Assembly (NCBI GenBank): GCA_027858995.1
Contig: JAQIBP010000145.1
Location: 1 to 34,714, forward strand
Source of the DNA: Deltaproteobacteria bacterium
Lineage (GTDB): Bacteria; Desulfobacterota; Desulfobacteria; Desulfobacterales; Desulfobacteraceae
Length of the DNA stretch: 34,714 nucleotides
Direction: 5' to 3'
Position numbers and translations under genes: made by a program. Of this stretch, positions 27,462 through 34,255 are shown piece after piece. Every line of letters begins with the position of its first letter. Position 1 is the stretch's first letter. A model generated the notes under the pieces. That model saw nothing but the letters and a program-made list of their open reading frames with translations, made no database searches and was not told the origin of the DNA.

Positions 27462-28292
27462 ATGGATAAAAAAAGATCAAAGTTAAAAGCATGGATAAAT
27501 GGTAAAATCATTGATCAGGAAAAGGCTGTGGTATCAGCTGCAGGACCTGGATTTCAATACGGAGCAGGTCTGTTTGAAACCATACGCGTGGACAGAGGGA
27601 ATATCTGTCATTTAAAAGATCATCTATCCCGTTTGAACAGGGCGTGGGAAAAACTTTTTTTTCAAACACCCCCTGATATTGCATGGGAACATGTGATCCA
27701 CTCATTAATAGAGGCAAATAATTTTCATGACAAATTGATCGCCGTTAAATTGCTAATATCAAAGTCCACTCCTGATAATGACAGAGATATATTCAAAGCA
27801 GCTTTTGCACGGGAATATATTCACAGACTTGAAATATCCGGACAGGATGGGCTGCATCTTGTTACATATCCATATCCAAGGCAGTCACCCCTTGCAGATT
27901 ATAAAACATTGAATTATCTCTATTATGAAAGGGCAGGGCAGTTTGCAAAAGACCACCATGGAGATGAGGCCATTATTTTAAATCCTGATTTTACCATATC
28001 CGAGACCAATACTGCCAGTATCTTTGCAGTCAAAGATAAAACTGTAATGGTTCCGGAGTCTCTCCATGTACTTGATGGGGTGACAATAAAATCTGTCTTG
28101 ACGATATTATCACATAAAGGGTATGATATCTGCAAAAAACCAATGCCGAAAGAGCAGTTTTACCTCTATCCCAATATTATTGTAACAAATGCTCTGATGG
28201 GTGCGGTTAAAGTTTTGTCCATTGACAAAAACAGAATAGAACATGAAAAAGAAGTCTGCTCCATGATCAATGAGCAGCTTTTTAGTATTTGA
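27462..28292 (+). CDS. pabC: Class IV PLP enzyme, probable aminodeoxychorismate lyase
   Basis: A 276-residue fold-type IV PLP enzyme. It has GPGFQYGAGLFETIRV near the N-terminus, the PLP-lysine segment KTLNYL (about residue 152), then ETNTASIFAV and GVTIKSVLTIL. Branched-chain aminotransferase and D-amino-acid transaminase share this fold, so the family alone does not decide. Position 17 bases after pabB points to PabC, which releases pyruvate from aminodeoxychorismate to give p-aminobenzoate. Confidence 0.83.
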   Translation: MDKKRSKLKAWINGKIIDQEKAVVSAAGPGFQYGAGLFETIRVDRGNICHLKDHLSRLNRAWEKLFFQTPPDIAWEHVIHSLIEANNFHDKLIAVKLLISKSTPDNDRDIFKAAFAREYIHRLEISGQDGLHLVTYPYPRQSPLADYKTLNYLYYERAGQFAKDHHGDEAIILNPDFTISETNTASIFAVKDKTVMVPESLHVLDGVTIKSVLTILSHKGYDICKKPMPKEQFYLYPNIIVTNALMGAVKVLSIDKNRIEHEKEVCSMINEQLFSI

Positions 28293-28320: not shown

Positions 28321-29022
28321 ATGAGAAAGATAAATATTGTAATTGCTGTCTTGTTTATATTGTCATTCCTGGCATATCAGGCAGCGGCACAGCCAAAGGC
28401 TGTGATAGACAATCCTGTTTTTAGCTTTGAAAAAGTTCCTGATGGTGTTCATGTGTCCAATGATTTTATAATTAAAAATATGGGTGATACGACTTTGAAC
28501 ATAACCAATGTTAAACCACCCTGAGGTTGTGACAAACACTCCTTTGACAAGGAAATTCCCCCGGGTGGGGAAGGAAAAATAAGCTTAAGTTTTAAAACAA
28601 GAGGTTATGGCGGCAGGACAATGAAAAAAACCACTCTGGTCAGAACAGATGATCCGGAAAAACCAAAGTTTACCTTAACTGTGACAGGCGAGGTTGATAG
28701 AGTTGTTACCATTAAACCCAAGTCTGTCTATCTTCAAGGGAGTCAGGGTGATACTCTGGAAACAACAGTAGATATAACTCCCTCACAAAAATATCAATTT
28801 GCAATTCTTGGTTTGGAACAAAGAGTTAACAAAAATATTAAGGCCAGCCTTGTTGCTCCCCAGGGGAGTGAAAAATCATGGCAGATTAAAGTAAAAGCCG
28901 AGTCAGAAAATACAGGCCAGGTGTATGATCTTTTGACCCTTAAAACAGATTCTAAATATTTACCCTCTTTTTCCATAAGAGTGTATGCAAAGTTTAGTGC
29001 AAAAAAGGAATCTGGTTCCTGA
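28321..29022 (+). CDS. Exported DUF1573 protein, probable selenoprotein (in-frame TGA = Sec68)
   Basis: An ATG with AAGGAG upstream opens a frame with a signal peptide (IVIAVLFILSFLAYQAAA, cleavage near QPK). It stops at TGA 28522-28524, but the same frame continues without interruption to 29022 and stays homologous to DUF1573: NVKPP-TGA-GC, then PPGGEGKISLSFKT and GEVDRVV. In this family the position is the first Cys of a CGC motif, so TGA stands for Cys/Sec. Two hairpins follow: TCCTT-TGAC-AAGGA (28540-28553, loop 20 bases after TGA) and TTCCCC-CGGGT-GGGGAA (28556-28572, 37 bases after). Both have a G at loop position 2, as bacterial SECIS elements do. The product would be 233 residues. The alternative, a nonsense mutation, would leave two fragments. 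Confidence 0.8.
28540..28572 (+). promoter_or_regulatory. Candidate bacterial SECIS hairpins
   Basis: There are two consecutive stems inside the coding sequence after the TGA: a 5-bp stem with loop TGAC (28540-28553) and a 6-bp stem with loop CGGGT (28556-28572). Only one would be needed. The first has the standard distance; the second has the stronger stem and a GGGT loop like that of known SECIS loops, at the far end of the usual distance. Confidence 0.5.
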
Positions 29023-29050: not shown

Positions 29051-29683
29051 ATGAATATTTCAAAAATTAAAGCTGTAATATTTGATTGTGACGGTGTGAT
29101 GTTTGATACTGCTGTTGCCAACCGCAAATATTATGATGAAGTTTTACAAAAGTTTAATAAACCAAAATTAAATGATGTCCAGTTTACCAATATTCACATG
29201 ATGACTGTAAAAGCAGCTATTGAATATCTCTTTTTTGAAATGGATGATCTTTCAGAGGTTTATGCCTGCCTGAAAAATATCGGGTATCATAAATTTATAG
29301 ATTATATGATTATGGAAAAGGGATTTGAAGATCTTCTCATAAAATTAAAAAACAGGGGATATCTTATAGGGATAGCAACCAACCGGACTGATACCATGGA
29401 AAAAATTTTAAAAGATTTCCACCTGGACAGCTATTTTGATGTTGTAATGACAGCGGCAAAAGTCAAAATGCCCAAACCGGATCCTGAGCAGTTAACACTG
29501 ATTATGGAAAATTTAAAATTAAATCCGGATGAGATTCTTTTTGTTGGGGATTCAGAGTATGACGGTCAGGCAGCAACAGCTGCGAAAGTCGGGTTTGCAG
29601 CCTTTAAAAATTCTGGCATGAAAGCAGATTTCAGTGTGGATTCAATGGAGGGAATTGCCAGGATTTTACATATAAATGAATAA
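29051..29683 (+). CDS. HAD-superfamily phosphatase (Gph/phosphoglycolate phosphatase-like)
   Basis: A 210-residue hydrolase. It has motif I FDCDGVMFDT with the nucleophile and acid aspartates, motif II IATNRTD, the motif III lysine in KMPKPDPEQL, and motif IV VGDSEYDGQAA. A helical cap (about 20-90) places it in the beta-phosphoglucomutase/Gph subgroup. Substrate unknown. GAGGAG lies about 20 bases upstream of the ATG, so translation may depend on the preceding gene. Confidence 0.88.
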   Translation: MNISKIKAVIFDCDGVMFDTAVANRKYYDEVLQKFNKPKLNDVQFTNIHMMTVKAAIEYLFFEMDDLSEVYACLKNIGYHKFIDYMIMEKGFEDLLIKLKNRGYLIGIATNRTDTMEKILKDFHLDSYFDVVMTAAKVKMPKPDPEQLTLIMENLKLNPDEILFVGDSEYDGQAATAAKVGFAAFKNSGMKADFSVDSMEGIARILHINE

Positions 29684-32099: not shown

Positions 32100-32843
32100 C
32101 TATTTTTCAGTATCAAGAATCAATCGGTAGGCAATATAATATTTAAAAATATTGCTGACATATTGTACAGTTTCCCTGCCAATCTGTCTTGCGGCAATAA
32201 TTTCAACATTTCTGAACCAGACATTGGGATCAAGCCCCATTGCCTCAGCTTTTTTTGCAGCAAAGCTTTTATTTAGATGTACAAGGCTTTCAAAATAAGA
32301 GCTTGATTTTCTGACATGGATTGTTAAGCCGCTAAGATCATCAATAGTTTTAACCACTGGAACATCAGGCCCGGAAACTAACACCTCATTTACACCATTT
32401 AGAAACGGATCACAAAAATCAATCTGCTTAAGCCTTTTATCAGTTATGGTCAGGTTCCCGGCAGCAATATCTCCCAACCCTTTTTTTAATGCAGGAATTA
32501 ATCTGTCCCTTGGTGTGGGGATGATTAACACAATGAGCTTTAAAACTTTATTTCCCAACTCTCTGTTTATGGTTTCTTCAAACTCTTTGAGCGTTTCATA
32601 GGTCAATCCTCTGGGAGTAGCTCCATCAAGGAAATAAAAGGTTTTACTTTGTGGAACCAATACACGAATAATACGATGTTTTACCATTTGATCATAATCG
32701 CCAAGCCATGCTTGATTGATGGTAAATTTTGAATCAACGTTTAAGTCGCTGATACCATATGCCAGAAAAGGTGTAGTTATAATAATGGTGATGCTGCACC
32801 AGCATATAAAAGATTTTTGGTTTAATATTTTTTTAATTTTCAT
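32100..32843 (-). CDS. MltF-like transglycosylase relative with large internal deletion
   Basis: A 247-residue product with a signal peptide or membrane anchor (about 12-30) and AAAGGA before the ATG. Residues about 45-190 match the first part of the periplasmic substrate-binding (SBP_bac_3) domain of MltF-like lytic transglycosylases. Residues 199-243 (EAMGLDPNVWFRNVEIIAAR, then the KYYIAYRLI end) match the extreme C-terminus of the SLT domain. Roughly 200-250 residues that normally lie between, including the catalytic glutamate, are absent, and the frame is kept. The junction is at about 32255-32270. Cell-wall cleavage should be lost. It may be a decaying gene or a shortened periplasmic binding protein. 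Confidence 0.72.
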   Translation of the reverse strand: MKIKKILNQKSFICWCSITIIITTPFLAYGISDLNVDSKFTINQAWLGDYDQMVKHRIIRVLVPQSKTFYFLDGATPRGLTYETLKEFEETINRELGNKVLKLIVLIIPTPRDRLIPALKKGLGDIAAGNLTITDKRLKQIDFCDPFLNGVNEVLVSGPDVPVVKTIDDLSGLTIHVRKSSSYFESLVHLNKSFAAKKAEAMGLDPNVWFRNVEIIAARQIGRETVQYVSNIFKYYIAYRLILDTEK

Positions 32844-33451: not shown

Positions 33452-34255
33452 TCACCAGGCTGCATTTTTACCAAAATCATTGGATGGCGAGGTGCCGCTT
33501 GCAAGATCCTTTTTCATGACAGAATGGACTTGTTCGCTTTTGCCGCATCTTTGGTGGAGCCAGTGGATAATATCTTCACCATTCATTTTGGACTCTGATA
33601 TATTGGTCACAATCCCAAGTACTTTATTTTGTTTGTCTTCTAAATTCATTGTTGGGAACGGTAAAGACATTTGTTCTTTTTGCATTCCGGGCAGGGCCTG
33701 CTGATCAGACATTAATTGCCTTTTTGCAAGATATCGATATTCTGGTCCTTTTTTACTATGACCTGTTTCACAATAATGCAGAAGATCATGCTGGTATCCG
33801 GCTGTGTCAGATCTTAAGTTTACCTGTCCGACATTCTTTGGCAGACATCTTAAGGCTTGTTTAAATACTTTGAGTTGCTTATATCCTGCCGGAACATTAC
33901 CGTCCCTGAACTGTGTGTGTAAAATTACATTTTGTTGTGCCCACCAGGTATTCAACGGCTGGAACGCTTTACCAGATTGCCGGGGTTTTTCCTGATCAGG
34001 ATCATGAAATCTGGACAGGTATCTGAACATTGCTAAAGGAGAAGGTACAAACCGTTTCTTTTCTTTACGCCACCTTTGTTCCAGCTTGCGGCGTTCTTTT
34101 CGTTTCAGGCCGTGTGATTGTATCCTGCTTAATATCTTACAAAATCCTTGATCTGCATTGAGAATATCCAGATCATCAACACAGCTGCCCCCGGCCAGGT
34201 TCAGCAATATCAAGGACATAACCGCCTGAACATCTGTCCATCCCTTAGATTCTAA
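33452..34255 (-). pseudogene. IS1380-family transposase remnant with internal deletions
   Basis: The minus strand encodes recognisable IS1380 segments: GWTDVQAVMSLILLNLAGGS (from about 34243; there is no proper start and a stop lies at 34256-34258), SPLAMFRYLSRFHDP, QPLNTWWAQQNVILHTQFRD, LRSDTAGYQHDLL, GPEYRYLA, and RCGKSEQVHSVMKKDLASG near the end. About 80 residues are missing after residue 83 (near 33970, joining GKAF to QPLNTWW), including a catalytic aspartate. A further gap is near residue 155 (33754). The N-terminus and C-terminus are also lost (TGA after GKNAAW). It is not active. Confidence 0.8.

Follow-up and report, generated by a model that had tools for sequence, protein, structure and literature searches.

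A probable DUF1573 selenoprotein of the OS_HP2 family in a Desulfobacula-like bacterium, and the HAD hydrolase gene that follows it

The gene at positions 28321–29022 (+ strand) of a 34,714-nucleotide stretch of DNA from a member of the Desulfobacteraceae (contig JAQIBP010000145.1; the whole stretch is referred to here as the window) encodes, with a probability that we put at about 0.96, a selenoprotein of the OS_HP2 family. An in-frame TGA codon at 28522–28524 (+ strand) would, to judge by the TGA and cysteine codons of relatives, specify selenocysteine (Sec) as residue 68. An earlier note on this DNA proposed selenocysteine in the UGC motif of a DUF1573 protein, and this proposal is supported by the conservation of the codon among relatives, the Sec machinery of the genome, a SECIS-like structure past the TGA and a curated family model. 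In this order of bacteria the gene is commonly followed by a gene for a HAD-family hydrolase.

A DUF1573 gene with a single in-frame TGA

Translation of the 28321–29022 frame agrees with the earlier description of a gene interrupted by a single TGA: apart from the TGA at codon 68, the frame is open up to its terminal TGA. Read through, it yields 233 residues with the motif U68-G69-C70 in the context NVKPP*GCDKHSFDK, in which C70 is the only cysteine of the protein. The proposed DUF1573 sequence on either side of the TGA is likewise borne out, the read-through protein matching the Pfam domain over residues 29–125 with 64.4 bits (cut-off 26.1). In an ORF list with an 80-aa limit, just the 28621–29022 part of the gene appears on the + strand; a gene split in this way by a plain ORF caller is set right by reading the TGA as Sec.

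The N-terminus encoded by 28321–28392 (+ strand) looks by eye like the signal peptide claimed for the protein, and the structural model places a helix at residues 2–20. From its sequence and model the DUF1573 selenoprotein is probably exported. A Pfam domain search of the 3.98-Mb genome, which is rated 97.1% complete, finds DUF1573 in the window gene only. The nearest named relative is a Desulfobacula sp. assembly (72% identical), and the host of the gene is a Desulfobacula-like bacterium, the genus being a likely assignment. A search of plasmid records with the DNA gave no match at E up to 1e-5.

Relation to the known family

The protein matches the NCBIfam model NF041425, 'OS_HP2 family (seleno)protein', with 125.3 bits (cut-off 100), and as far as the available portions of the literature go, the family has been listed since 2008, when OS_HP2 was given with pfam07610 and the motif UxC (PMC2398784). 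A 2022 review has 'DUF1573 domain-containing protein, pfam07610, UGC' and credits seleno-DUF1573 to Zhang and Gladyshev 2007, a paper on a deltaproteobacterial symbiont of Olavius algarvensis (PMC9312934), and DUF1573 with UGC also appears in a 2026 review (PMC13188914). Because of this match and these listings the Sec form is not new, and a described Sec form of DUF1573, of which the earlier note did not know, does exist; the window gene is a new member of the known, still uncharacterised OS_HP2 family. With NF041425 it shares a score above the cut-off, the DUF1573 domain and Sec in the UxC motif of PMC2398784. It differs in being of the PP-U-GC-D type, with GCD directly past the TGA, as are 48 of the 149 relatives listed in our comparison. 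The DUF1573 selenoproteins of PMC9312934 and PMC13188914 have the same domain and motif as the window gene and, in the text available, other example records. DUF1573 is also named, in the accessible part of the source, in an iron-deficiency transcriptome in Bacteroidetes.

Codon 68 among relatives

A protein search of 145 genomes, all of the window's order and with its own among them, gave matches in 128. Our codon set comprises 149 of the 150 matches listed, with the window gene counted in and the fragment G048:C927 omitted. Among these listed matches codon 68 is TGA in 131, TGC in 12, TGT in 6 and nothing else in any, with the proviso that the query was the Sec form and that weaker matches beyond those listed may hold more Cys forms. 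The earlier note had placed the TGA at the first cysteine of the CGC motif, giving PP-U-GC, and had suggested aligning homologues at this codon; the alignment confirms the placement, the relatives having TGC, TGT or TGA there. Residue 70 is Cys in 148 of the 149 listed matches, and a single TGA form of the 131, L148 (G134:C39), lacks a Cys two residues past the Sec (U-A-S). A further TAA or TAG occurs in four matches (G004, G055, G118 and the Cys form G117:C198), and may reflect assembly errors or decay.

On a tree of 143 of the 149 matches (six rows, a Cys form included, were left out as short or partial), Sec and Cys exchange at least eight times by parsimony, and five of these changes are forced by well-supported branches; the tree was made by a quick method with Sec masked in the Sec rows and Cys kept in the Cys rows, which amounts to a small leak. 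In a sample of 197 genomes from the phylum, the window's own included, NF041425 matches 75 and is passed at its cut-off by 21, with both TGA and stop-free forms seen. Outside the order, 10 of the 16 genes read, which were chosen mostly from the best-scoring, have TGA and six have Cys codons.

Sec machinery and rival readings of the TGA

The earlier note had also pointed to selA, selB, selC and selD as genes to look for. The window's genome holds them all, each over its cut-off: selA with 601 bits, selB with 350 bits, selD with 366 bits and tRNA-Sec (selC) with 75.6 bits (gathering score 47). Across the order, selB exceeds its cut-off in 127 of the 145 genomes. The selD gene (G000:C151:10190-11116; L045) itself has one in-frame TGA, which makes selenophosphate synthetase a further probable selenoprotein. 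In several genomes of the order two selB-like matches exceed the cut-off, and in L224 (G061:C1:576722-579304) the second selB-like match is preceded on the same strand, at a distance of about 30 bases, by a Cys-form DUF1573 match.

Two other readings of the TGA have to be weighed against these results, and both carry next to no probability. That the TGA is a true stop in a decaying or split gene, or a sequencing error, is suggested by nothing more than the internal stop of a single sequence; TGA at codon 68 is found in 130 other matches listed, the rest of which have Cys and never TAA, TAG or another residue, the frame is open on either side, and NF041425 is a curated selenoprotein family. Nothing was found in favour of a changed genetic code in which TGA is read as another residue: the OS_HP2 gene ends in TGA itself, the residue that alternates at position 68 is always Cys in the 149 matches listed, and the genome encodes the Sec machinery. 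Decay, sequencing error and code change are all rejected by codon 68 in these 149 matches, and we keep to the reading of the TGA as selenocysteine.

A SECIS-like structure past the TGA

The two hairpins that had been reported at 20 and 37 bases past the TGA, with G second in the loop, both exist. H1 (28540–28553, + strand) has a 5-bp stem, TCCTT/AAGGA, and the loop TGAC starting 20 nt past the TGA, and is seen in folding, in the centroid and in family covariation; H2 (28556–28572, + strand), seen in folding and by the SECIS rules, has a 6-bp stem, TTCCCC/GGGGAA, and the loop CGGGT starting 37 nt past the TGA. The rules for bacterial SECIS elements, as given in the available text of PMC13188914, are a loop of 3–9 nt, a stem of 4–16 bp, G in the first two loop positions, a spacing of 16–37 nt and a minimum free energy of at most -7.5. 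H2 is the best SECIS candidate and accords with every rule (loop 5, stem 6, G second, spacing 37, which is the upper limit, and -8.6 kcal/mol for bases 28–57 past the TGA). H1 does so in all but energy (-3.7), and may form part of the SECIS.

The total fold of the window sequence alone is not unusual, since 125 of 200 dinucleotide shuffles fold at least as well; its lowest-energy fold retains H2 only, and the centroid shows both hairpins. Synonymous shuffles of the window gene fold as well in a fraction of 0.07 for H1, 0.10 for H2 and 0.02 for both. Support for the putative SECIS structure comes from the family rather than from this single-sequence fold. Hairpins that follow the SECIS rules without energy were counted under two further limits of our own, no more than one G-U pair and two or more G-C pairs. 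Of the 48 PP-UGC-D genes 47 have such a hairpin (synonymous shuffles lead one to expect 17.6), of the 83 other (TG-type) Sec genes 46 (29.3 expected), and of the 18 Cys genes 6 (3.1 expected). Compared with synonymous shuffles, the mean z of the folding energy for H1 and H2 is -1.20 and -0.86 in the 48 PP genes, -2.25 and -1.66 in the 83 other Sec genes, and -0.62 and 0.03 in the 18 Cys genes; z is lower in Sec than in Cys genes, with rank-sum p values of 8e-5 and 2e-7 that ignore relatedness. The SECIS-like structure is thus stronger in the Sec than in the Cys forms. By a score of our own, applied to 79 distinct TG-type Sec sequences without length changes, the top covarying pair is 14-27, a pair of the H1 stem in that type (T-A 38, C-G 31, T-G 7), the second, 10-14, is no stem pair, and the third, 36-44, belongs to H2. 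In the PP type the H1 stem is in another register than in the TG type, and a fraction of 0.78 of 46 sequences can form its most variable pair, 16-28.

Gene neighbourhood and the HAD hydrolase

Directly downstream lies a HAD-family hydrolase gene (29051–29683, + strand; HAD_2, 113.9 bits), a conserved neighbour in the order; of the 25 NCBIfam models listed out of 44, those whose cut-offs it reaches are general HAD models, and none is an equivalog. HAD homologues were sought on the same strand in the 1.5 kb that follow, each gene being counted once, with Sec genes picked by closeness and contig extent and the Cys genes made up of the 18 of the codon set plus one. In the order, a HAD gene follows 64 of 71 Sec genes (six are without it and one is cut by the contig end). 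Cys-form (CGC) genes, which share the DUF1573 domain and differ in having Cys for Sec and a weaker SECIS-like structure, are followed by it in 8 of 19 (11 are without), and because the HAD gene follows both forms, Sec and Cys forms can hold the same place. For the 72 genes of both forms that have the HAD gene, the DUF1573 and HAD matches are separated by no more than 230 bases in all but one. Outside the order the gene was found in 1 of 16 (one cut), so that the pairing is, as far as seen, a feature of this order. L043 (Desulfococcaceae), excluded from these counts, has a Sec form without the HAD gene. In L193 (G177:C37) Sec-form and Cys-form DUF1573 genes stand in tandem and are followed by the HAD gene. 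Any link of the HAD enzyme to the selenoprotein, to selenium or to redox chemistry is conjectural.

Upstream of the DUF1573 gene the neighbours differ by lineage, and no functional link is drawn from them. The window has there a gene for a chorismate-binding enzyme and, by domain match, a class IV aminotransferase gene (Aminotran_4; 27462–28292, + strand) that is not conserved at this place across the order. The genes before the chorismate-binding enzyme resemble what we take to be riboflavin synthesis genes and nusB; in five other loci an upstream gene of 813–844 aa presumably corresponds to priA, which it resembles. Elsewhere in the window, 33452–34219 (- strand) has a weak DDE transposase match (30.1 bits, cut-off 34.7) and is possibly a transposase remnant, and 32100–32843 (- strand) encodes a possibly truncated protein of 247 residues with a family 3 solute-binding domain; its end overlaps a methylase gene.

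Predicted structure and possible function

An AlphaFold2 model built on 62 sequences (mean pLDDT 95.2) consists of the N-terminal helix and two all-beta halves, with Sec68-Gly69-Cys70 in the loop between strands 59–65 and 72–75. By title, the best 50 of 381 PDB fold matches (E up to 0.001) are Ig-like and related beta domains: chains of the axoneme central apparatus rank first, others are CEP192 and titin, and 2qsv, a Porphyromonas gingivalis protein of uncharacterised function, comes 12th. The model accordingly gives the OS_HP2 protein two Ig-like domains, the first of which carries U-G-C in a loop. Whole-chain TM-scores are low, 0.44 for the best PDB match, which in our reading would fit two domains at differing angles. 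A sequence search of the PDB matched no chain at E up to 1. No known redox fold, thioredoxin-like or other, was found among the best 50 of the 381 PDB matches, and the model and the PDB search together reject a thioredoxin-like fold.

Invariant in the 62 rows, of which L148 is not one, are N53, residue 68 (Sec or Cys), C70 and G140. Since residue 68 and C70 are invariant and C70 is the sole Cys of the window protein, a selenol/thiol pair that forms a selenenylsulfide suggests itself. In the mechanism that we propose, the RNA structure just past the UGA would recruit SelB and so place selenocysteine at residue 68, a step that the comparison of relatives strongly supports; the protein would be exported and fold as two Ig-like domains; Sec68 would then attack a disulfide, or a substrate that is oxidised or electrophilic, and Cys70 would resolve the product via a selenenylsulfide. 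We give such a periplasmic selenol/thiol redox role of the OS_HP2 protein slightly better than an even chance. An alternative, which concerns the redox step only and which we consider unlikely, is that U-G-C is a binding site for metals or metalloids such as mercury, copper or arsenite. Two soft-ligand residues on an Ig-like scaffold without a known redox fold would suit such a role, and Pfam has DUF1573 as a family of unknown function; on the other hand, there is no third conserved ligand, the window protein has Asn at column 47, where 58 of 62 rows have His, and no metal-transport gene is among the annotated neighbours (HAD, aminotransferase, ATP sulfurylase, methylase and others).

Outlook

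It is conceivable, if distinctly improbable as a whole, that seleno-DUF1573 and the HAD gene form a conserved two-gene unit in this order of relatives of sulfate reducers, in which the translation or mRNA stability of the hydrolase would be tied to selenium, because the reading of the first gene's UGA depends on it, and that the exported protein would represent a new class of selenol redox proteins, based on an Ig-like domain and not on thioredoxin. Most of the DUF1573 matches read in this order are selenium forms, with cysteine forms as the exception, and the conserved HAD neighbour offers a way towards the function of a family which has so far, in the available parts of the literature, been listed as a predicted selenoprotein.
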